A DNA stretch of 64,000 nt. Origin: Terriglobia bacterium (GTDB lineage Bacteria; Acidobacteriota; Terriglobia; Acidiferrales; UBA7541). Location of the stretch: NCBI GenBank assembly GCA_020072785.1, contig JAIQGG010000002.1:992001-1056000 (forward strand), given 5' to 3'. Positions 19,483 through 30,022 of this stretch are shown piece after piece. Within the stretch, counting starts at the first letter, position 1; each line of letters begins with the position of its first letter. The notes under the pieces were generated by a model. It searched no databases. It saw only the letters and a list, made by a program, of their open reading frames with translations, and had not been told where the DNA came from. Made by a program: the position numbers and the translations under genes.

Positions 19483-21507
19483 TTGGCAGCAGGCACGAGA
19501 ATTGATCTGGAAGCACGGCTTCCTGCCGCTCCGCTGGGGGCTGCGGCGGGCTGGGGCGACCGTCTCGAACAGGCGATTGAGCGCGGTGTCAATCACCTGC
19601 TTTCGCTGCAGACGGAAGAGGGCTACTGGCACGGTGAGCTGGAAGCCGACACTACGCTGGAGTCGGATTACATTTACTACCTCCACGTTTTGGGAAAGGC
19701 CGATCCAGAGCGCATCGCCAAGCTGGCCAACTACGTGCGCCGGCGGCAACTCCCGGACGGCGGCTGGAATATTTATCCCGACGGGCCGGCGGAACTAAAC
19801 GCCACGGCCAAGGCTTACTTCGCGCTGAAGCTGGCGGGAGACATGCCGGATACGCCGCACATGGCGCGTGCGCGGGAGACGGTGCACCGTCTGGGCGGTC
19901 TGGAACACAGCAACTCGTACGTGCGCTTCTACCTGGCGCTGGTGGGTGCGGTGGGCTGGGATCTGGTGCCCGCGATTCCGCCGGAGCTGATGCTCGTGCC
20001 GAACTGGTTCTTCCTCAACATTTATGAGATGTCCTCGTGGACCCGCGGCATTGTCATTCCTATGGCCATCCTTTCCGCGCTGCGCCCGGAGTGGCGCCTG
20101 CCCGAGCAGGCCCGCGTGGACGAGCTGTTTCGCGACTCCGCGAAGAAGCGCGCGGCGTTTGACTGGAGCAAGCAGCTCCTTTCCTGGAAAAACTTTTTCC
20201 TGGCCCTGGACCGGGCCCTCAAGCTGTACGAGAAGCTGCCTTGGAAGCCGCTGCGCCAGCGCGCCTTGCGGGAAGCGAAGTCCTGGATGCTCGAGCATCT
20301 CGAGCGGAGCGACGGCCTCGCGGCCATCTATCCGGCGATGATGAACTCCATCTTCGCGCTGATGGCCCTGGGGCACGGCCCGGAAGATCCGCTGACCGCG
20401 CGGGAGATTCGCGAATTCGCACGATTTGAGATCGCCGAAGGCGACACCATCCGGCTGCAGCCGTGTGTTTCCCCAGTGTGGGACACCTGCATCGCCATGG
20501 TCGCGCTGGAAGAGGCCGGCTTGCCCGCCGATCATCCGGCGCTGGTGAAAGCCACGGACTGGATCTTGTCCAAGCAGGTGCTCGGCCCGGGCGACTGGCA
20601 GGTCAAGAACAAGGACGCCGAGCCGGGTGGCTGGGCTTTTGAGTTCCGCAACGACTGGTATCCGGACGTGGACGACACGGCCTTCGTCCTGATGGCCCTG
20701 CAGCGCGTGAAGTTTCCCGACCCCGCGCGCATGGAGAAGTCCGTGCGTCTCGGCATCCAGTGGCTGCTGAGCATGCAGAACAAGGACGGCGGCTGGGGCG
20801 CGTTCGACCGCGACAACAATCACAAGCTCCTGTGCAATATTCCCTTCGCCGACCACAACGCGATGATCGATCCTTCGACCGCGGACGTGACCGCGCGCGT
20901 GGTGGAGTGCCTGGGCCGCTTCGGCTGGCCGGTACAGCACCCCGCGGTGCGCCGCGCCGTACAGTTTCTGGTGCAGGACCAGTGCGAAGACGGCGCGTGG
21001 TTCGGGCGCTGGGGCGTGAACTATGTCTATGGCACAGGCGGCGTGCTGCGCGCGCTGGAGACCGTTTCGCTGACCGCCCAGGAGTATTGCCAGCGCGGGG
21101 TGCGCTGGCTGCGCGCCGTGCAGAACCCCGACGGCAGCTTCGGCGAGTCTTTGCGCTCCTATCACGAGCCGGCGACCAGGGGGCAGGGCAACTCCACGCC
21201 TTCGCAGACCGCTTGGGGTCTGATCGGCTTGCTGGCCGGGGCCGACGCGCAGGACCCGGCGATCCTCAAGGCGGTTACTTTTCTCCTGAGCCAGCAGAGC
21301 TCCGACGGCTCGTTTTCCGAGGGCGATTTTACGGGCACGGGTTTCCCGGGGGTGTTCTACCTGAAGTATCACCTGTACCGCAATACGTTCCCGCTGTATG
21401 CGCTGGCCAGATACCGCAACCAGGCGCACAATGCCGCGGAATTCCGGGCGCTGAGCTTCCGCCCCGAAGAGTTCCGCCTGCGCAGCGGATTCCAGGGGGC
21501 TAAATGA
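19483..21507 (+). CDS. shc: Squalene-hopene cyclase
   Basis: Cyclises squalene to hopene/hopanol at the cytoplasmic membrane, the committed step of hopanoid synthesis. The 674-residue protein has the catalytic DxDDT motif as D395-V-D-D-T399 and six visible QW repeats (for example QTEEGYW, QLPDGGW, QNKDGGW, QCEDGAW, QNPDGSF, QSSDGSF) that stabilise the double alpha-barrel. Length is typical for the family. The start is a TTG at 19483, about 10 bases after GGGGGA; no ATG is in frame before conserved sequence. Its stop overlaps the hpnH start (ATGA). Confidence 0.95.
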   Translation: MAAGTRIDLEARLPAAPLGAAAGWGDRLEQAIERGVNHLLSLQTEEGYWHGELEADTTLESDYIYYLHVLGKADPERIAKLANYVRRRQLPDGGWNIYPDGPAELNATAKAYFALKLAGDMPDTPHMARARETVHRLGGLEHSNSYVRFYLALVGAVGWDLVPAIPPELMLVPNWFFLNIYEMSSWTRGIVIPMAILSALRPEWRLPEQARVDELFRDSAKKRAAFDWSKQLLSWKNFFLALDRALKLYEKLPWKPLRQRALREAKSWMLEHLERSDGLAAIYPAMMNSIFALMALGHGPEDPLTAREIREFARFEIAEGDTIRLQPCVSPVWDTCIAMVALEEAGLPADHPALVKATDWILSKQVLGPGDWQVKNKDAEPGGWAFEFRNDWYPDVDDTAFVLMALQRVKFPDPARMEKSVRLGIQWLLSMQNKDGGWGAFDRDNNHKLLCNIPFADHNAMIDPSTADVTARVVECLGRFGWPVQHPAVRRAVQFLVQDQCEDGAWFGRWGVNYVYGTGGVLRALETVSLTAQEYCQRGVRWLRAVQNPDGSFGESLRSYHEPATRGQGNSTPSQTAWGLIGLLAGADAQDPAILKAVTFLLSQQSSDGSFSEGDFTGTGFPGVFYLKYHLYRNTFPLYALARYRNQAHNAAEFRALSFRPEEFRLRSGFQGAK

Positions 21508-22661
21508 GATTTCCTTTGAAGATGACCGCGAATCTGACGAAGTACATCGCGGCCAAGAAGATCGGCGGCGTGAAGAAGTTTCCGCTGGTGATGATGCTCG
21601 AGCCGCTGCACGCCTGCAACCTCACCTGCACCGGTTGCGGGCGCATCCGCGAATACAAGAGCACCATCAACGAGATTATGAGCGTGGAGCAGTGCGTGGC
21701 CGCGGCCGAAGAATGCGGCGCGCCGATCGTCTCCATCTGCGGCGGCGAGCCGTTGATCTATCCGGAAATCGGGCGGCTGACGAAGGAGCTGCTGGACCGC
21801 GGCCGGCACATCTACCTGTGCACCAACGGCATGTTCATCCGCAAGCGCATGCACGAGTTCAAGCCCACCTCCAGCTTCTTCTGGAACGTGCACCTGGACG
21901 GCATGGAGCGCACCCACGACCTGTGCGTGGAACGCGACGGCGTCTTCCGCGACGCCATTGAAGGCATCAAGGCCGCCAAGGCCGCGGGCTTCCTGGTCTG
22001 CTCCAACACCACCATCTACAAAGAGACCGACTTGAGCGAGGTCGCCGAGCTCTTCGAATATCTCTACGAGCTGGGCGTGGACGGCTACATGATCTCCCCG
22101 GCCTATTCTTATTCGGCCGTGGCCACCCAGGACATCTTTCTGACCCGCGACGATATCGTGAACAAGTTCCGCGACGCGCAGGCCGTCCTCGACAAGTACA
22201 ACGTCATGATGTCCCCCATCTACTACGAATTTCTGCGCGGCGAGCGCCAACTGGAGTGCGTCGCCTGGGGCACGCCGACGTATAACCCCAAGGGCTGGAA
22301 AGCGCCCTGCTATCCCATGACCGACGGGCACCACGCCACGTTCAAGGATTTCCTCGAGAAGACCAACTGGGACAGCTATGGCCCGGGCCGCGATCCCCGC
22401 TGCCAGGACTGCATGATGCACGTTGGCTTCGAGCCTTCCGCGGTGCTCGGCGGGAATTCCAAGCTGGGCGATACCTGGAAGCTGCTCTCTTGGCAGCTCT
22501 CCGGGAGCCTGGGCGGCGCGCGCGGCAAAGGCCAGCCCGCGAACGGCCATTCCAACGGCGCAGCGAACGCGAATGGACATTCCAACGGCCACGCGGCCGT
22601 GACGACGCCTCCGCTGACGGAAGAACTGGTCTCCTCCGACGGGCGCCTGCGGATTCTATGA
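21504..22661 (+). CDS. hpnH: Adenosyl-hopene transferase HpnH (radical SAM)
   Basis: HpnH joins the 5'-deoxyadenosyl group to hopene, forming adenosylhopane, the first C35 hopanoid. The radical-SAM cluster motif is C38-x3-C42-x2-C45 (CNLTCTGC), followed by the GGEP-type segment ICGGEPLIYPEI. The remaining sequence (YCWG-like ECVAWGTPTYNPKGWKAPCYPM and RCQDCMMHVG) is characteristic of HpnH. The protein is 385 residues, a little long: the last ~50 residues form a low-complexity tail with repeated GHSNG units that is not part of the core. Four-base ATGA overlaps link it to shc before and hpnA after. Confidence 0.95.
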   Translation: MRFPLKMTANLTKYIAAKKIGGVKKFPLVMMLEPLHACNLTCTGCGRIREYKSTINEIMSVEQCVAAAEECGAPIVSICGGEPLIYPEIGRLTKELLDRGRHIYLCTNGMFIRKRMHEFKPTSSFFWNVHLDGMERTHDLCVERDGVFRDAIEGIKAAKAAGFLVCSNTTIYKETDLSEVAELFEYLYELGVDGYMISPAYSYSAVATQDIFLTRDDIVNKFRDAQAVLDKYNVMMSPIYYEFLRGERQLECVAWGTPTYNPKGWKAPCYPMTDGHHATFKDFLEKTNWDSYGPGRDPRCQDCMMHVGFEPSAVLGGNSKLGDTWKLLSWQLSGSLGGARGKGQPANGHSNGAANANGHSNGHAAVTTPPLTEELVSSDGRLRIL

Positions 22662-23680
22662 CCACATTAGTGACCGGTGCCGCGGGCTTCCTGGGAAGCC
22701 ACGTGGCGCGGCAGTTGGCGGCGCGGGGCGACGCCGTTCGCGTGCTTTTGCGTCCGTCGAGCACCAACCGGGCCATTTCCGACCTTTCCCTGGAATACGT
22801 CACCGGCGACCTGCGCGATCCGGCTTCCTTGGATCGTGCGCTGCTCGGTGTGCGCCGCGTCTTTCACGTGGCCGCCGATTACCGCCTGTGGGCGCGGCGT
22901 TCCGGCGAGATCTACGAATCCAACGTCACTGGCACGCGCAATTTGCTGCAAGCTGCCAAGCGCGCAGGCGTGGAGCAATTGATTTACACCAGTACGGTGG
23001 CCACCATCGCCGTAGACCGCCCGGAACTCCCCAACGAAGCCACAAACGCCGCGCTCGATGAGATGGTTGGGCATTACAAGCGCTCCAAGTGGCAGGCGGA
23101 GCGGGAAGTCCTGCAGGCCGCGCAGGAGGGGCTGCCGGTGATCGTGGCCATGCCCACCACGCCGGTGGGCCCGGGCGACTGGAAGCCGACGCCGACCGGA
23201 AAAATCATCGTGGATTTTCTGAACGGGAGAATGCCCGGGTACGTCGAGACGGGGCTGAACTTTGTGGGCGTGGAGGATTGCGCCGCGGGGCATCTGCTGG
23301 TGGCGGAGAAGGGCAAAGTGGGCGAGCGCTACCTGCTGGGCGCGGAAAACCTGACCCTCAAGCAGGTGCTGGACACCCTGGCCCAGATCACCGGCCTGCC
23401 CGCGCCGAAGCGCAAGATTCCGCACGGCTTGGCGCTCTGCGCGGCCTACGCCAATACCGTTTTCGCGCGCCTGACCTTTCGCGAGCCGAGCATTCCCGTG
23501 GAAGGCGTAAAGATCGCGCAGCACAGGATGTTCGTGGATTGCGCGCGTACGCAGCGCGAGCTGGGCTTCCGGCCCGGGCCGGTGGCCGCGGCCCTGGAGC
23601 GCGCCGTGCGCTGGTACGAAGCCAACGGGTACGTCACCGGCCGGGCCGCGAAGCGCCTGGCGCGGGCGCAGGCGGCCTAG
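22658..23680 (+). CDS. hpnA: Hopanoid-associated sugar epimerase-like protein HpnA
   Basis: An extended-SDR protein of 340 residues: nucleotide-binding TGAAGFLG (residues 6-13), catalytic Tyr/Lys as H-Y-K-R-S-K near residue 138 preceded by YTSTVATI. It is the usual hpnA product, annotated as a hopanoid-associated sugar epimerase or reductase; its true substrate has not been settled. Its place directly behind hpnH fits a role on the C35 side chain. The start overlaps the hpnH stop by ATGA; the nucleosidase gene follows after 44 bases. Confidence 0.92.
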   Translation: MTTLVTGAAGFLGSHVARQLAARGDAVRVLLRPSSTNRAISDLSLEYVTGDLRDPASLDRALLGVRRVFHVAADYRLWARRSGEIYESNVTGTRNLLQAAKRAGVEQLIYTSTVATIAVDRPELPNEATNAALDEMVGHYKRSKWQAEREVLQAAQEGLPVIVAMPTTPVGPGDWKPTPTGKIIVDFLNGRMPGYVETGLNFVGVEDCAAGHLLVAEKGKVGERYLLGAENLTLKQVLDTLAQITGLPAPKRKIPHGLALCAAYANTVFARLTFREPSIPVEGVKIAQHRMFVDCARTQRELGFRPGPVAAALERAVRWYEANGYVTGRAAKRLARAQAA

Positions 23681-23724: not shown

Positions 23725-24507
23725 ATGCGAGTCCTCGTCACCTTCGCCGTCGAAACCGAATTCGCCCCTTGGCGCGCTCGCCACGCGTTTCTTTGCCGGG
23801 AGCCGCAAGATTCGCATCGGCAAGCAAAGTGCGGCCTGTACACGGCGGCTATCGATGTGGCAGAGGTTATGGTTCTTCTCACCGGCATGGGCAGGGAAAG
23901 CGCGGTGCGCGCAATGAAGAGCGTGGCCCTGGACAGCTGCGATGTTTGTATCTCGACCGGGCTGGCCGGCGCATTGGATGCGGCCTTGCGCCCCGGGGAG
24001 ATCGCCGCGGGGCGCAGCGCCGGTGTTGCCGGCGGGGAGCGGCAGATGCCGAGCGATGGCGGCCTGCTCGATTGCGCCGTATCCTGCGGCGCGCGGCCGG
24101 TGGATCTTTTTTTGACTTCGGAGACGATTGCGGCCACGGGCAGAGAGAAACAAGCGCTAGGCGCCTTTGGGAACATCGTCGAAATGGAAAGTTTCCATGT
24201 GTTGGAGGCGGCCAGCGCGGCGCACGTGCCGGCCGTGACGCTGCGCGCGATCAGCGATACCCTGGCGGAGGACCTGCCCATCGATTTTCACCGCGTTTTG
24301 GATTCCCGCGGCCACGTCCGCATCGGCCGAATGATGGCGGAACTCGCGCGGCACCCGCAACATATCCCCGCTCTGATCCGTTTTGGAAGGCAAAGCCGCT
24401 CGGCGAGCGAATCGCTGGCGGATTTTCTCGACCGCTACGTCCCTGCGGTGGCAGGAGGCCGGCATCGGGTGAGCAAGGCAAGCGTGGAAGAGGTTTCCGC
24501 GACATGA
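23725..24507 (+). CDS. hpnG: Hopanoid-associated nucleosidase/phosphorylase (HpnG type)
   Basis: A 260-residue protein of the PNP/MTAN phosphorylase fold. Recognisable pieces are the amino-terminal FAVETEFAPWR, the phosphate/ribose loop VLLTGMGRESA, STGLAGALDAALRPGEI, and the ribose-binding VEMESFHVL followed by a catalytic-site SD (RAISDTL). HpnG removes adenine from adenosylhopane to give (phospho)ribosylhopane. The similarity to PNP proteins is clear, the assignment to HpnG comes mainly from position. Start ATG at 23725; its stop overlaps the next start. Confidence 0.85.
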   Translation: MRVLVTFAVETEFAPWRARHAFLCREPQDSHRQAKCGLYTAAIDVAEVMVLLTGMGRESAVRAMKSVALDSCDVCISTGLAGALDAALRPGEIAAGRSAGVAGGERQMPSDGGLLDCAVSCGARPVDLFLTSETIAATGREKQALGAFGNIVEMESFHVLEAASAAHVPAVTLRAISDTLAEDLPIDFHRVLDSRGHVRIGRMMAELARHPQHIPALIRFGRQSRSASESLADFLDRYVPAVAGGRHRVSKASVEEVSAT

Positions 24508-25610
24508 GCCGGACAGGGGCTACACTCGATCCGCGGGCGGCGCTTGGGCCGGTGCCCAGGACCATGCGCGCGGGCGTGTACCGCGGCAAGGGCATCGTAC
24601 GCGTCGAAGAGGTGCCGGTGCCCGAACTGGGCGACGGCGAAGTGCTGATCAAGGTGGCCTGCTGCGGGATCTGCGGCACGGATATTAAGAAGATTTTCCA
24701 CGCTTACGTCGAGCCGCCGCAGATTCTGGGCCACGAAGTTGCCGGGACGGTGGTGGCCGTGGGGCGCGGGGTCAACAAGTGGAAGCCCGGCGACCGGGTC
24801 ATGAGTTTCCACCATATTCCCTGCGGGACTTGCTTTTACTGCCAGAAACGCCTGTTTTCGCAGTGCCCGCGCTACAAGACCACGGGGCTGACCGCGGGCT
24901 TCACGCCGAACGGCGGGGGCTTCGCGGAGTACGTGAAAGCCATGCCGTGGGTGGCGGAGCGGGGAATCGTGGCCCTGCCCGCTGGGGTCAGCTTCGAGCA
25001 GGCCACCTTTATCGAGCCGGTGAACACCATCTTCAAAGCCATCCAGAAGGCCCGGGTGGCCGCCGGGGAAACGGTCCTGGTGATCGGCTGCGGTCCCGTG
25101 GGCCTCCTGTTGCTGATGGTTAGCCACTTGGAGGGCGCAAAGTTGTACACTAGCGATCCTATGGCCGAGCGCCGGGCCAAGAGCCTACAATTGGGGGCCA
25201 GCGCGTCGTTTGACCCGGGCAGTGGTAAGCTGGTGCAAGAGATCAAGGCCCGTACGGAAGGCCGCGGGGCGGATGCGGTTCTTGTCGCTGTACCGCATCC
25301 GGCTGTTGTGGTGGAAGCATTAGCAGCGGCGCGGCCCGGCGGGCGGGTTCTGCTGTTCGCGGCGAATGACCCGGTGACCAGGATCGAGTTTCCCGCGGGG
25401 GCCGTGGGCATCGACGAGAAAGAGATTCTGGGCAGCTACAGCGCGGCAGTGGATATTCAGGAGCCCGCGGCGGCATTGGTGCTATCTGGGAAATTGCCGG
25501 TAATGGAATTGGTTACGCACCGCTTTTCTCTGGATAGAATCCAGGAAGGGCTGGAGCTGGCGGCGCGGCCGACCGCCGAGTCGCTGAAGATTTTGATTAC
25601 ACACACGTGA
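24504..25610 (+). CDS. Zinc-dependent MDR dehydrogenase in the hopanoid operon (first)
   Basis: A 368-residue medium-chain dehydrogenase/reductase. Catalytic zinc ligands are intact: CGICGTD and GHE in the amino domain. The structural zinc site is C-G-T-C-F-Y-C-x7-C, and the NAD(P) site is VIGCGPVGLL. These enzymes interconvert alcohols or polyols and carbonyls. It overlaps hpnG by ATGA and the next dehydrogenase by GTGA, so it is surely part of the operon. No standard hpn gene has this family; the place just behind the nucleosidase makes a reductase acting on the ribosyl side chain (towards bacteriohopanetetrol) the best guess. Threonine- or sorbitol-dehydrogenase-like activity cannot be excluded. 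Confidence 0.88.
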   Translation: MSRTGATLDPRAALGPVPRTMRAGVYRGKGIVRVEEVPVPELGDGEVLIKVACCGICGTDIKKIFHAYVEPPQILGHEVAGTVVAVGRGVNKWKPGDRVMSFHHIPCGTCFYCQKRLFSQCPRYKTTGLTAGFTPNGGGFAEYVKAMPWVAERGIVALPAGVSFEQATFIEPVNTIFKAIQKARVAAGETVLVIGCGPVGLLLLMVSHLEGAKLYTSDPMAERRAKSLQLGASASFDPGSGKLVQEIKARTEGRGADAVLVAVPHPAVVVEALAAARPGGRVLLFAANDPVTRIEFPAGAVGIDEKEILGSYSAAVDIQEPAAALVLSGKLPVMELVTHRFSLDRIQEGLELAARPTAESLKILITHT

Positions 25611-26725
25611 GCACAACGGCACAGAAGAAGCTGGAGATCGTCAGCGGGCAGAAAGCGCCGCTGGCCGCGCCCCCCCACGTGCCCGCGCTGATGACCGCGG
25701 CGGTGCTCTACGGGAGCGAAGACCTGCGCGTCGAGCAGATCGCGGTGCCCAAGCTGGCCGCCGACGAAGTGCTGCTGCGCGTGTGCATCGCCCTGACCGA
25801 CGGCACCGACCTCAAGGTCTGGAAGCGCGGCTATCACGCGCGGATGATTCAGCCGCCGGCCGTTTTCGGCCACGAAGTGGTGGGCGAGATCGTGCGCAAG
25901 GGCCGCGATGTGGAGTCCCGCTGGGAGCTGGGTATGCGCGTGGTGGCCGCGAACTCCGCGCCCTGCCTGCGCTGCTTCCTCTGCCGCTGCGGCCAGGAAA
26001 ACCTTTGCGCAGACTTGCTCTTCAATAATGGCGCGTACGCCGAGTACATGCGCATTCCCGGGCGCATTGTGCGGGAAAACATGCTCGAGGTCCCGGAGAA
26101 AGTCACGGACCAGGACGCCGCGCAGGTCGAGCCCCTGGCCTGTGTGCTGCGCGGCATCCACGAGATGGATGCCCGCGTCGGCGACACCATCGTGGTCATC
26201 GGCTGCGGACCCATCGGCTTGAAATTTATCCGCATGCTCTCGCGGCGCGGCCTGCGCGTGATTGCCCTGGCCCGCCGTGCGGCTCCCCTGGAAGTGGCCC
26301 GGCGCATGGGTGCAGCCGTCACCGTCAACACTTCCGAAGTGGCCGACCCGATTGCCGCCGTCCGGGAATTGACCGAGGATCGGCGCGGGCCGGATGGGGT
26401 GGTGGAAGCCGCCGGCAATACCACTACCTGGCAATGGGCGCTGCAGATGGTGCGCCGCGGCGGGGTGGTCAACTTTTTCAGCGGCCTGCCGGGCGGCACC
26501 AAGGTGGAAATCGAGCCCGCGGCCATCCACTATTCGGAGATTCGCATGATCTCCCCGTTCCACCATACGCCGCGTTTCATCCGCGAAGCGCTCGAGGCCA
26601 TCCGCCGCGGCGACGTGCTGGCGCGGGATTTTGTGACCGAGGAGATCCGCCTCGTGGATCTGCCCCAGGCCTTCCAAAAAATGAAGTCGCGCAGCGGCGA
26701 GATCAAGCTCGCTGTCCGGCCCTGA
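25607..26725 (+). CDS. Zinc-type MDR dehydrogenase in the hopanoid operon (second)
   Basis: A 372-residue relative of the preceding enzyme but clearly distinct. The structural zinc site is complete (C-L-R-C-F-L-C-x7-C), and the cofactor site is VIGCGPIGLK. In the catalytic zinc site, the position of the first Cys (CGTD in the neighbour) reads DGTD, so that ligand is Asp instead of Cys; the GHE part is kept. This could alter zinc binding or leave it zinc-independent. The GTG start overlaps the previous stop. hpnCD follows 47 bases later. Substrate unknown; it may act in sequence with the first dehydrogenase, or on squalene/hopanoid-linked alcohols. Confidence 0.85.
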   Translation: MSTTAQKKLEIVSGQKAPLAAPPHVPALMTAAVLYGSEDLRVEQIAVPKLAADEVLLRVCIALTDGTDLKVWKRGYHARMIQPPAVFGHEVVGEIVRKGRDVESRWELGMRVVAANSAPCLRCFLCRCGQENLCADLLFNNGAYAEYMRIPGRIVRENMLEVPEKVTDQDAAQVEPLACVLRGIHEMDARVGDTIVVIGCGPIGLKFIRMLSRRGLRVIALARRAAPLEVARRMGAAVTVNTSEVADPIAAVRELTEDRRGPDGVVEAAGNTTTWQWALQMVRRGGVVNFFSGLPGGTKVEIEPAAIHYSEIRMISPFHHTPRFIREALEAIRRGDVLARDFVTEEIRLVDLPQAFQKMKSRSGEIKLAVRP

Positions 26726-26772: not shown

Positions 26773-28644
26773 ATGCTGCGTCCAGGTGAACTCGAAATCG
26801 CGCGCCACGCTCCGCCCGCAGGCTGCTCCCCGGCGGAGGCCCGGCGCTACACGCGCTGGCTCGCCACACACCACTACGAAAACTTCAACGTGGTTTCCTG
26901 GCTGCTCCCCCGCGAACTGCACCAGCATTTCTACAACGTCTACGCCTACTGCCGCTGGGCCGACGATCTGGGCGACGAGGTTCCCGAGACGCCGCGGGCG
27001 CTCGAATTACTGGACTGGTGGGAGCGCGAACTGGACGCCTGCTACGAGGAGCGGCCCGCGCATCCCGTCTTCGTGGCCCTGCGCGAGACGATTGTCGCGC
27101 GCGACATTCCCAAACAGCCCTTCGCCGACTTGCTGCGGGCCTTCCGCCAGGACCAGACGGTCAAGCGCTATGCCACGTGGGAGGATGTGCTCGGCTACTG
27201 CCGCTATTCCGCGAATCCCGTGGGACGCCTGGTGCTGTACCTCGGCGGCTACCGCGACGCGGAGCGGCAGCGGCTTTCCGACGCCACCTGCACGGCGCTG
27301 CAACTGGCCAATTTCTGGCAGGACGTCGCGCGCGACCTGGAGAAGGGCCGCATCTACATTCCCCTGGACGTGGCCGCGCGGCACGGCCTGAGCGAGGCGG
27401 AGATCGTCGCGCGGAACTTCGACGCGCGCTACGCGGGGCTGATGCAGGAGTTGGTGGCGCGCACTCGCGTGCTGTTCGAGGAAGGGCGGCCGCTGGCGCG
27501 CCTGGTGCCCGGGCGCCTGGGCGTGGACGTGGAGATGTTCAGCCGCGGCGGCATCGCCGTGCTCGACGCGATTGAGGCCCTGGGCTACGACACGCTGCAC
27601 CACCGCCCGGCCATCAGCCGCGGCAAGCAAGTGCAGTTGCTGGGCCGCACGCTGCTGGCGCGGCTCGTCGCGCCGGAGTCCAGGTCCGGCGCGGCGGCGG
27701 TCCCGGCAGCGGCCGGGTCCGTGGAAGAGTCCTACGCCGAATGCCACCGCGTGGCCCGCGCGGCGCGCAGCAATTTCTACTATGCCTTCTACCTGCTGCC
27801 GCGGCCCAAACGCGACGCCCTGGCGGCGCTCTATGCCTTCATGCGCCAGGTGGACGACGTGGCCGACGAGGGCCATGACGTGGCCGCCAAGCAGCGCGGC
27901 CTGGCGCGTTGGCGCACGCTGCTGGATGCCGCCCTGGTCGGCGATGGCCCCGTGGGCAACGCCGTGCTGCCCGCTCTGGCGGATACCATGCGTCGTTACA
28001 AGATTCCCGCGCGCTATCTGCATGACCTGATTTCCGGCGCGGAGATGGATCTGACGGTGCGGACCTATCCGACCTTCGACCGCCTGCGCGAGTATTGCTA
28101 CCGCGTAGCGGGCACGGTGGGTTTGACCTGCGTGCACGTCTTCGGCTTCCGCGAACCTCGCGCGGTGGACCTCGCGGAAAAGCTGGGCCTGGCCTTTCAG
28201 CTCACCAACATCATCCGCGACGTCCACGAGGACTTCGCTCTCGGCCGCGTCTATCTCCCGGACGAGGACCTGGCGCGTTACGGCGTGGCCCCGGAGGATT
28301 TCGGGCGTAGCGAGGCGACGCTGGGCGTGCGCGAGTTGCTGCGCTTCGAAGCCGGGCGGGCCTGGCAGTGTTACGAAGAGGGCTCCCAGCTGCTGGCCCT
28401 GGTGGATGCGGACAGCCGTGGCGCTCTCTGGCTGCTGATCCGCACCTACAGCGCCTTGCTGGCGCGCATCGAAGCCGGCGACTTTGCCGTCTTTGGAGAA
28501 CGCGTACGCCTGGCGAAGTCCGAGAAAATCTATTTTGCGGGTATGGCGAGATTTGGACGCCTGACGGAAGAGAATGTCCTCGAAAAGCGTGATCGTGATC
28601 GGCGGCGGGCTGGCGGGTCTGGCAGCCGGCGTCGCGCTGGCTGA
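26773..28644 (+). CDS. hpnCD: HpnC-HpnD fusion (squalene synthesis)
   Basis: A single 623-residue frame holds two trans-isoprenyl synthase domains. Residues about 15-295 match HpnC: DDLGDE near 63-68 and QDVARDLEKGR near 183. After a linker rich in Ala/Pro/Ser (about 297-318), residues about 320-600 match HpnD: DDVADE near 360 and RDVHEDFALGRVYLP near 482. Both aspartate-rich motifs are intact in both halves. In bacteria with separate genes, HpnD condenses two farnesyl diphosphates to presqualene diphosphate and HpnC converts that to hydroxysqualene; a fusion could pass the intermediate directly. ATG at 26773. Its last 71 bases overlap hpnE in another frame. Confidence 0.93.
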   Translation: MLRPGELEIARHAPPAGCSPAEARRYTRWLATHHYENFNVVSWLLPRELHQHFYNVYAYCRWADDLGDEVPETPRALELLDWWERELDACYEERPAHPVFVALRETIVARDIPKQPFADLLRAFRQDQTVKRYATWEDVLGYCRYSANPVGRLVLYLGGYRDAERQRLSDATCTALQLANFWQDVARDLEKGRIYIPLDVAARHGLSEAEIVARNFDARYAGLMQELVARTRVLFEEGRPLARLVPGRLGVDVEMFSRGGIAVLDAIEALGYDTLHHRPAISRGKQVQLLGRTLLARLVAPESRSGAAAVPAAAGSVEESYAECHRVARAARSNFYYAFYLLPRPKRDALAALYAFMRQVDDVADEGHDVAAKQRGLARWRTLLDAALVGDGPVGNAVLPALADTMRRYKIPARYLHDLISGAEMDLTVRTYPTFDRLREYCYRVAGTVGLTCVHVFGFREPRAVDLAEKLGLAFQLTNIIRDVHEDFALGRVYLPDEDLARYGVAPEDFGRSEATLGVRELLRFEAGRAWQCYEEGSQLLALVDADSRGALWLLIRTYSALLARIEAGDFAVFGERVRLAKSEKIYFAGMARFGRLTEENVLEKRDRDRRRAGGSGSRRRAG

Positions 28645-30022
28645 AACCGGCTGCCAGGTGCGGCTGTTCGAGAAGCGTCCTTTTCTCGGCGGACGCGCCA
28701 CGTCTTATGTGCTCCCGGACGGTGAGCACGTGGACAACTGCCAGCACGTGACCCTGGGCTGCTGCACCAACTTGGAGGATTTTTACCGCCGCGCGGGCTC
28801 CGCGGACAAAATTAAGTTTTTCGACCGCCTGGTTTTCGTGGACGCCCACGGGCGCCCGGGCGTGATGCAGGCCTCGCCGTTCTGCCCCGCGCCCTTCCAC
28901 CTCTCGCCCTCCTTCACCTTTTTTCCGTTGCTGACCCTGCGCGACAAGCTGGCCATCGCTCGCGCCATGCTGGATATCTCCCTCGGCCGCGGCCACACCC
29001 GCGATCTCGACGAGCCCGGCGGTATCTCCATGCTGGAATGGCTGCGGCGGCGGCGCCAGACGCCCGGGGCCATCGCTCGCTTCTGGCGCGTGGTGCTGGT
29101 CAGCGCCCTGGACGAAGAGTTGGAACGCACCGACGCCCGCTACGGCGTGCAAGTCTTCTGGAAGGCCTTTCTCGCCAGTCGCACGGGTTACCGCATGGGC
29201 GTCCCGGCGGTGCCCCTGGCGGAGCTCTACGACGGCTGCCGGGCGGCCATGGAGCGCAAGGGCGGGGAAGTGCTGCTGCGCGCCCCGGTGCGCGGCTTGC
29301 GTTTCGAAAACGGGCGCGCCGCCGGCGTGCAGCTGGACGACGGGCGCATGGAGACGGCTGACGCCTATGTGCTGGCGGTGCCCCATGCGGCTCTGCCCGA
29401 GCTTCTCCCCGCAGAGCTGTTGCGGAACGATCCTGGCTTGGCGCAGATCGGCAAGCTCACCGATGCGCCCATCACCGGCGTGCATTTCTGGTTCGACCGC
29501 GCGGTGATGTCCGAGCCGTTCTTGAGCGTGCTGGACTGCACCACGCAGTGGATCTTCAACAAGACCGCGCTTTACGGTGCGGCGGGGACCGCGAACGGCG
29601 GACAGTATCTGCAGATCGTTATCAGCGCCTCTTACGACCTGCTGCCGCGCTCCCGCCAGGAGATCATCGATCTCTGCCTCGGCGAAGTGCGGCAGATTCT
29701 TCCCGCGGCGCGCACGGCCGTGCTCCGCAAGGCCACCGTGATCAAGGAGACCGCGGCGACGTTTTCGCCCGCGCCGGGCTGCGACCGCTGGCGCCCCCGG
29801 CAGCAGACCGCAACCCCGGGACTCTTCCTGGCCGGGGACTGGACCGCTACCGGCTGGCCCGCGACCATGGAGGGCGCCGTGCGCAGCGGCTATCTGGCCG
29901 CGGAAGCGGTTTTGCGCGACGCCGCCTCCCCGCAATCGTTTCTGCAGCCCGACCGCCCAGACGACGGCCTCTTCAAGTTTTGGAAGCCGGCCGCTTTGCG
30001 GTCGCGCGTGCAAAAGCAGTGA
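28574..30022 (+). CDS. hpnE: Hydroxysqualene dehydroxylase HpnE
   Basis: FAD-dependent amine-oxidase/phytoene-desaturase-like flavoprotein that reduces hydroxysqualene to squalene. The 482-residue protein starts with VIVIGGGLAGLAAGVALAETG (FAD Rossmann motif, 6-26), continues FEKRPFLGGRATSY, and ends with the second FAD motif PGLFLAGDWTATGWPATMEGAVRSG. This is the usual HpnE length and completes the pathway from farnesyl diphosphate to squalene. It starts inside the end of hpnCD (71-base overlap), so translation is probably coupled. It is the last gene of the operon; a convergent gene follows 18 bases downstream. Confidence 0.94.
   Translation: MSSKSVIVIGGGLAGLAAGVALAETGCQVRLFEKRPFLGGRATSYVLPDGEHVDNCQHVTLGCCTNLEDFYRRAGSADKIKFFDRLVFVDAHGRPGVMQASPFCPAPFHLSPSFTFFPLLTLRDKLAIARAMLDISLGRGHTRDLDEPGGISMLEWLRRRRQTPGAIARFWRVVLVSALDEELERTDARYGVQVFWKAFLASRTGYRMGVPAVPLAELYDGCRAAMERKGGEVLLRAPVRGLRFENGRAAGVQLDDGRMETADAYVLAVPHAALPELLPAELLRNDPGLAQIGKLTDAPITGVHFWFDRAVMSEPFLSVLDCTTQWIFNKTALYGAAGTANGGQYLQIVISASYDLLPRSRQEIIDLCLGEVRQILPAARTAVLRKATVIKETAATFSPAPGCDRWRPRQQTATPGLFLAGDWTATGWPATMEGAVRSGYLAAEAVLRDAASPQSFLQPDRPDDGLFKFWKPAALRSRVQKQ

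Follow-up and report, generated by a model that had tools for sequence, protein, structure and literature searches.

Two zinc-dependent dehydrogenases in an acidobacterial hopanoid operon as candidate enzymes of side-chain synthesis

Few bacterial biomarkers are used as widely in the study of rocks and soils as the hopanoids, whose central C35 form is bacteriohopanetetrol (BHT). HpnH adds an adenosyl group and HpnG removes adenine, and the intermediate that results from both reactions is ribosylhopane. Which enzyme then reduces ribosylhopane to BHT is the question raised by a stretch of 64,000 nucleotides from a Terriglobia bacterium (GCA_020072785.1, contig JAIQGG010000002.1, positions 992,001 to 1,056,000; hereafter the window, with coordinates counted from its start). 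Its plus strand carries a hopanoid operon with the order shc-hpnH-hpnA-hpnG-like-MDR1-MDR2-hpnCD-hpnE, in which MDR1 and MDR2 code for two zinc-dependent proteins of the medium-chain dehydrogenase/reductase (MDR) type. We tentatively propose that they are a conserved pair of oxidoreductases acting on the side chain in acidobacterial hopanoid synthesis, with MDR2 as the candidate ribosylhopane reductase. The proposal is backed directly by operon position, deep conservation, co-occurrence with squalene-hopene cyclase (SHC), intact catalytic sites, cofactor signatures and independence from the squalene branch.

The conversion of ribosylhopane to BHT was still without an assigned enzyme in a paper of November 2025, which reported no candidate reductase near alphaproteobacterial clusters (PMC12583986). 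Likewise, none of the papers found by our literature search names an enzyme for this reduction, in agreement with a preliminary description of the locus that knew of no firmly assigned gene. The two MDR genes are thus open to direct deletion or assay for a known gap in hopanoid synthesis. In a 2017 survey of acidobacterial hopanoid clusters (Sinninghe Damste et al., PMC5462960), an unidentified gene after hpnA-hpnG was called ug1, and a gene for a Zn-binding alcohol dehydrogenase of ~350 residues before hpnC was called ug2; judging by position in loci L131-L133, these appear to be MDR1 and MDR2. That account gave them no function and tied ug2 to squalene synthesis via hpnC/D/E; the couple, its cofactor split and its dissociation from hpnC/D/E, all described here, form no part of it. 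The gene positions (2017) and the common fold were therefore already known, and what is added here, as far as the literature found shows, is the coupling of the genes, their cofactor split and their separation from the squalene branch.

Conservation of the pair and its association with SHC

In the class to which the window belongs, families down to 50% protein identity retain the order shc-hpnH-hpnA-hpnG-MDR1-MDR2-hpnC-hpnD-hpnE or large parts of it. The order hpnG-MDR1-MDR2 was found in eight of the nine other genomes of the class that were read around MDR2; the contig of genome G051 begins at MDR1, and in G047 MDR1 is missing between hpnG and MDR2. We then considered 80 further loci, the best 80 of 575 relatives in a contig scan, all from Acidobacteriota. 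MDR1 immediately precedes MDR2 in 77 of the 78 testable loci, a squalene synthase gene directly follows MDR2 in 74/75 (convergent in two of these), and hpnG comes before MDR1 in 62/67. This arrangement is far beyond chance.

The distribution of the pair was determined in a survey of 149 Acidobacteriota genomes, 38 SHC-positive and 111 SHC-negative, with strong matches defined as at least 473 bits for MDR1 and at least 476 bits for MDR2. MDR1 is present in 21 genomes and MDR2 in 22, with both in 21. All 21 pair-bearing genomes have SHC above the cut-off, and the 111 SHC-negative genomes of the survey all lack MDR1. The association is highly significant when counted by genome (Fisher p = 1.5e-15), and when each family is counted once the pair is present in 5/12 SHC-positive versus 0/51 SHC-negative families (p ~1e-4). 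Both genes are also kept when unlinked: one genus of family f11 has MDR1 in a cluster with shc-hpnH-hpnA-hpnG and MDR2 in another with hpnC-hpnD-hpnE, the distance between them often reaching hundreds of kilobases, and all members sampled retain both. The conserved hpn linkage and the co-occurrence with SHC bear out the assignment of both MDR genes to the hopanoid operon made in the preliminary description.

In the window's class, nearly all SHC-positive genomes have the pair, the exceptions being G050 and G053. In G050 (L031), which is listed as 100% complete, SHC and HpnH are encoded side by side, and a squalene/phytoene synthase, HpnG and the MDR pair were not found. In family f6 (G053 and G060; L033, L034, L039, L146 and L147), the hopanoid genes are scattered without an MDR pair: hpnH and hpnA are together, the squalene synthase pair is apart, and SHC is apart or absent.

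Zinc and cofactor sites of MDR1 and MDR2

Both proteins match PF08240 (ADH_N) and PF00107 (ADH_zinc_N) above the gathering scores. Residue conservation was read in 84 MDR1 and 94 MDR2 sequences. In MDR1, the ligands of the catalytic (C57, H77, E78 and E171) and structural (C107, C110, C113 and C121) zinc ions are conserved in 84/84 sequences, except for one Cys in one sequence. In MDR2, H89, E90 and E175 and the structural C120, C123, C126 and C134 are present in 94/94. Position 65 of MDR2, that of the catalytic-zinc Cys (25799-25801 in the window), is occupied by Cys or Asp, and the MDR2 of the window has Asp65. As Asp is limited to 18/94 sequences, from the window's genus and its near kin, this replacement was rejected as a defining trait of MDR2.

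In MDR enzymes, selection of NAD depends on an acidic residue where the second Rossmann strand ends, and NADP is permitted when this place is held by a small residue and Arg or Lys comes next. Here all 84 MDR1 sequences have Asp or Glu, and in 93/94 MDR2 sequences the residue is non-acidic, with Lys or Arg after it (position 223). The couple is thus predicted to comprise one NADP-type enzyme, MDR2, and one NAD-type enzyme, MDR1.

AlphaFold models of the two proteins, of good confidence (predicted local distance difference test score, pLDDT, 82), matched structures of sorbitol dehydrogenase, threonine dehydrogenase and ketose reductase in Foldseek searches with template modeling (TM) scores of 0.77-0.84. 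Alcohol dehydrogenases were matched as well, and the fold is that of polyol dehydrogenases, in line with the polyol-type kinship initially claimed for the pair. The NADP(H)-dependent ketose reductase/sorbitol dehydrogenase 1e3j and human sorbitol dehydrogenase 1pl6 share this fold and the zinc ligands of the pair, and 1e3j is a close solved relative of MDR2, the cofactor site being non-acidic and Arg-bearing in both. Nevertheless, 1e3j is only ~28% identical, and the substrates of these enzymes are soluble hexoses and polyols, in contrast to the triterpenoid-linked pentose that would be expected here. The nearest solved structure to MDR2 by both sequence and fold, the Sinorhizobium meliloti putative zinc-binding dehydrogenase 4ej6/4ejm, is 28-29% identical and has a putative function only. 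For MDR1, the top NCBIfam and close PDB matches are L-threonine 3-dehydrogenase (2d8a, 2dfv) and scyllo-inosose 3-dehydrogenase IolM (NF041097), but with 162-166 bits against cut-offs of 450-458 MDR1 falls outside both families. More generally, neither protein reached the known equivalog models for L-threonine dehydrogenase, IolM, idonate dehydrogenase and galactitol-1-phosphate dehydrogenase, the best scores being 166 versus 450 bits for MDR1 and 130 versus 380 bits for MDR2.

A comparison of MDR2 in the window and in the near relative G007 gave 60 synonymous and 11 non-synonymous codon differences for codons 29-372, which shows purifying selection on the gene. Its first 28 codons evolve more freely, with four synonymous and six non-synonymous differences, and the core that aligns with relatives begins at M29; translation may thus start at the ATG at 25691.

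Proposed side-chain function and competing explanations

The presence of the pair does not follow that of HpnC/D/E, as would be expected of a function in the squalene branch. The pair occurs without HpnE above the cut-off in G207 and G208 (loci L080 and L088), where an FdfT-type squalene synthase gene adjoins MDR1-MDR2 (182 bits for L088), and in the f38 genomes G093 and G161. Conversely, G053 lacks the pair but has SHC, HpnH, HpnA and HpnE and, side by side, two genes of the squalene synthase type arranged as HpnC/HpnD, with the proviso that the assembly is 95% complete and an MDR locus could have been missed. These four genomes and the reverse case argue that squalene formation by HpnC/D/E neither needs the pair nor is needed by it, so that work on the side chain is what is left. 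A squalene role as the main explanation was rejected because of this dissociation in both directions, which also supports the side-chain view of the preliminary description, and on these comparisons a side-chain role appears to be the better reading.

MDR1 and MDR2 would act on the ribose-derived C35 side chain, downstream of HpnH and HpnG. MDR2, as a zinc-dependent, NADPH-using enzyme, would form the primary alcohol of BHT by reducing the carbonyl that ribosylhopane has in its open-chain form. MDR1, as a zinc-dependent, NAD-using polyol dehydrogenase, would share this head group as its substrate and might, for instance, oxidize a hydroxyl. The NADPH-type cofactor site expected of a ribosylhopane reductase is found in MDR2 (93/94 sequences), the site of MDR1 being of the NAD type; an NADPH-type polyol dehydrogenase would fit reduction chemistry, and an NAD-type one would better fit oxidation. 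That the side chain is the substrate, that MDR2 works reductively and which carbon each enzyme attacks are inferred. The HpnO aminotransferase route starts from the same intermediate, ribosylhopane, but leads by amination rather than reduction to aminobacteriohopanetriol and uses another enzyme family (PMC12583986); HpnO itself could not be separated from other class III aminotransferases with the models used here, a difficulty also reported in PMC5462960.

Several observations weigh against this proposal. Two enzymes are present, versus a single missing reduction. The pair is absent from 17 of the 38 SHC-positive genomes, including members of f34, f36, f41, f50, f56, f57 and f65, and many pair-less genomes, from other acidobacterial families as well, have SHC and HpnH and in most cases also an HpnG-like gene. 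In the pair-less clusters that were read, hpnA is usual and an MDR gene absent, which keeps HpnA alive as the reductase. G053, without the pair, carries an HpnG-like frame (62 bits), and the idea of a joint loss of HpnG and the pair in this genome was dropped for that reason. Where the two MDR genes are split, MDR2 remains with the squalene genes. The f38 lineage breaks the NADP rule of MDR2, with Asp at the key site. Finally, an MDR2-like gene (48% identity) is present in G179, a genome that lacks SHC, HpnH and MDR1.

Since the pair is missing from those 17 genomes, another enzyme must perform the step there. A universal reductase role was therefore rejected, and the pair represents at most a lineage-specific solution. 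Its initial designation as a candidate side-chain reductase agrees with the place in the operon and with the NADPH-type site of MDR2, but it needs to be narrowed, as only MDR2 looks like a reductase and the pair is not universal. A stronger form of the proposal, which we regard as possible but doubtful, is that MDR2 is the ribosylhopane reductase of Acidobacteriota and forms with the NAD-type MDR1 a side-chain redox couple that no other hopanoid pathway described to date contains, BHT being made by unrelated enzymes across phyla. If this is true, the BHT-forming step has more than one evolutionary origin.

A somewhat unlikely alternative, still to be taken seriously, is that HpnA or an unlinked enzyme reduces ribosylhopane, with later tailoring of the side chain by the MDR couple. 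MDR1 would then oxidize a secondary hydroxyl with NAD and MDR2 re-reduce it with NADPH, so that its configuration is inverted or the molecule is directed to another type of bacteriohopanepolyol. Such a redox inversion needs exactly an NAD-type and an NADPH-type enzyme kept together, and an addition found in some lineages only would suit a tailoring function. HpnA has been proposed for the reduction step (PMC5462960), and in most of the acidobacterial clusters read, pair-bearing or not, hpnA adjoins hpnG. Against this, work cited in PMC5462960 indicates that Burkholderia cenocepacia can make BHT without hpnA and that Rhodopseudomonas lacks the gene, and the literature found describes no acidobacterial BHT stereoisomer that would require the couple. 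Our data cannot separate MDR2 as the reductase from HpnA or an unlinked enzyme in that role.

It is less probable that the two proteins are general polyol or alcohol dehydrogenases hitch-hiking in the operon and acting on a soluble metabolite, perhaps to recycle the adenine-free ribose or redox cofactors. Distant tandem MDR relatives (30-40% identity) do occur outside hpn loci in f41, f56, G130 and G179, and plasmid records gave no match above 40% identity. In locus L121 (G179:C23, 7240-10412), the MDR2-like gene of G179 is divergent beside genes for a class II aldolase, an acireductone dioxygenase and a HAD hydrolase. These neighbors are methionine-salvage-type genes, which handle 5-substituted ribose, and count in favor of this alternative. 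The preliminary description had regarded occurrence outside hpn loci in relatives, with another clear role, as telling against a hopanoid function, and occurrence outside hpn loci is seen in part: G119 has the pair outside the hpn cluster but with SHC elsewhere in the genome, and the MDR2-like gene of G179 occurs without SHC. By contrast, the hpn-type pair is strictly coupled to SHC (21/21 pair-bearing and 0/111 SHC-negative genomes) and is retained when unlinked.

Least probable is a role of MDR2 in the squalene branch, which the authors of 2017 had taken from its position ahead of hpnC: a squalene synthase gene follows it in 74/75 loci and it stays with hpnC-hpnD-hpnE when split from MDR1, but four genomes have the pair without HpnE (G207, G208, G093 and G161), G053 shows the reverse, HpnC/D/E make squalene without ug2 in Escherichia coli (Pan et al. 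2015, as cited in PMC5462960), and PMC5462960 itself deems ug2 non-essential for squalene synthesis.

Operon layout and neighboring genes

Table 1 lists the features of the operon. The coordinates of MDR1 and MDR2 and their 4-base overlaps were correct as first described, and both genes are intact. The MDR genes aside, all products score above their NCBIfam cut-offs except the HpnG-like nucleosidase, yet relatives have a matching gene at the hpnG place.

TABLE 1 Hopanoid operon of the window and its gene junctions
Feature	Position	Strand	Evidence
shc (hpnF), squalene-hopene cyclase	19483..21507	+	TIGR01507 766 bits, cut-off 431; opens the operon in our reading
hpnH, adenosylhopane synthase (radical S-adenosylmethionine [SAM] enzyme)	21504..22661	+	TIGR03470 433 bits, cut-off 225; CxxxCxxC motif intact
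hpnA, hopanoid-associated extended short-chain dehydrogenase/reductase ("sugar epimerase")	22658..23680	+	TIGR03466 439 bits, cut-off 368
hpnG-like nucleosidase/phosphorylase	23725..24507	+	TIGR03468 118 bits, below cut-off 187; PF01048
Overlap ATGA, hpnG stop/MDR1 start	24504..24507	+	Sequence
MDR1, zinc MDR dehydrogenase, predicted NAD(H)-type cofactor site (D218)	24504..25610	+	ATG to TGA, 368 aa; PF08240, PF00107
Overlap GTGA, MDR1 stop/MDR2 start	25607..25610	+	Sequence
MDR2, zinc MDR dehydrogenase, predicted NADP(H)-type cofactor site (A222-R223-R224)	25607..26725	+	GTG to TGA, 372 aa; PF08240, PF00107
hpnC-hpnD fusion, hydroxysqualene and presqualene diphosphate synthases	26773..28644	+	TIGR03464 532 bits, TIGR03465 435 bits; single 623-aa frame
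hpnE, hydroxysqualene dehydroxylase	28574..30022	+	TIGR03467 448 bits, cut-off 283

Overlaps of four bases also join shc to hpnH and hpnH to hpnA, as at the hpnG-MDR1 and MDR1-MDR2 junctions, and hpnE overlaps hpnCD by 71 bases. Gaps of 44 and 47 bases separate hpnA from hpnG and MDR2 from hpnCD, respectively, so that MDR2 does not overlap hpnC. The MDR1-MDR2 overlap recurs as ATGA in genome G009 (L038) and as GTGA in G007. A promoter scan upstream of shc yielded one sigma-70-like site, at chance level.

Relatives in the window's genus (L035:9445-10077 on the minus strand, L043:6143-6982, L045, L047, L048 and L051) have, flanked by shc and hpnA, an HpnH homolog without the CxxxCxxC motif, encoded by an open frame of 253-372 residues. 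Many of these genomes have a canonical HpnH (~550 bits) elsewhere; in the window's genome the canonical HpnH lies inside the operon. This retained pseudo-radical-SAM homolog of HpnH is a worthwhile object of study.

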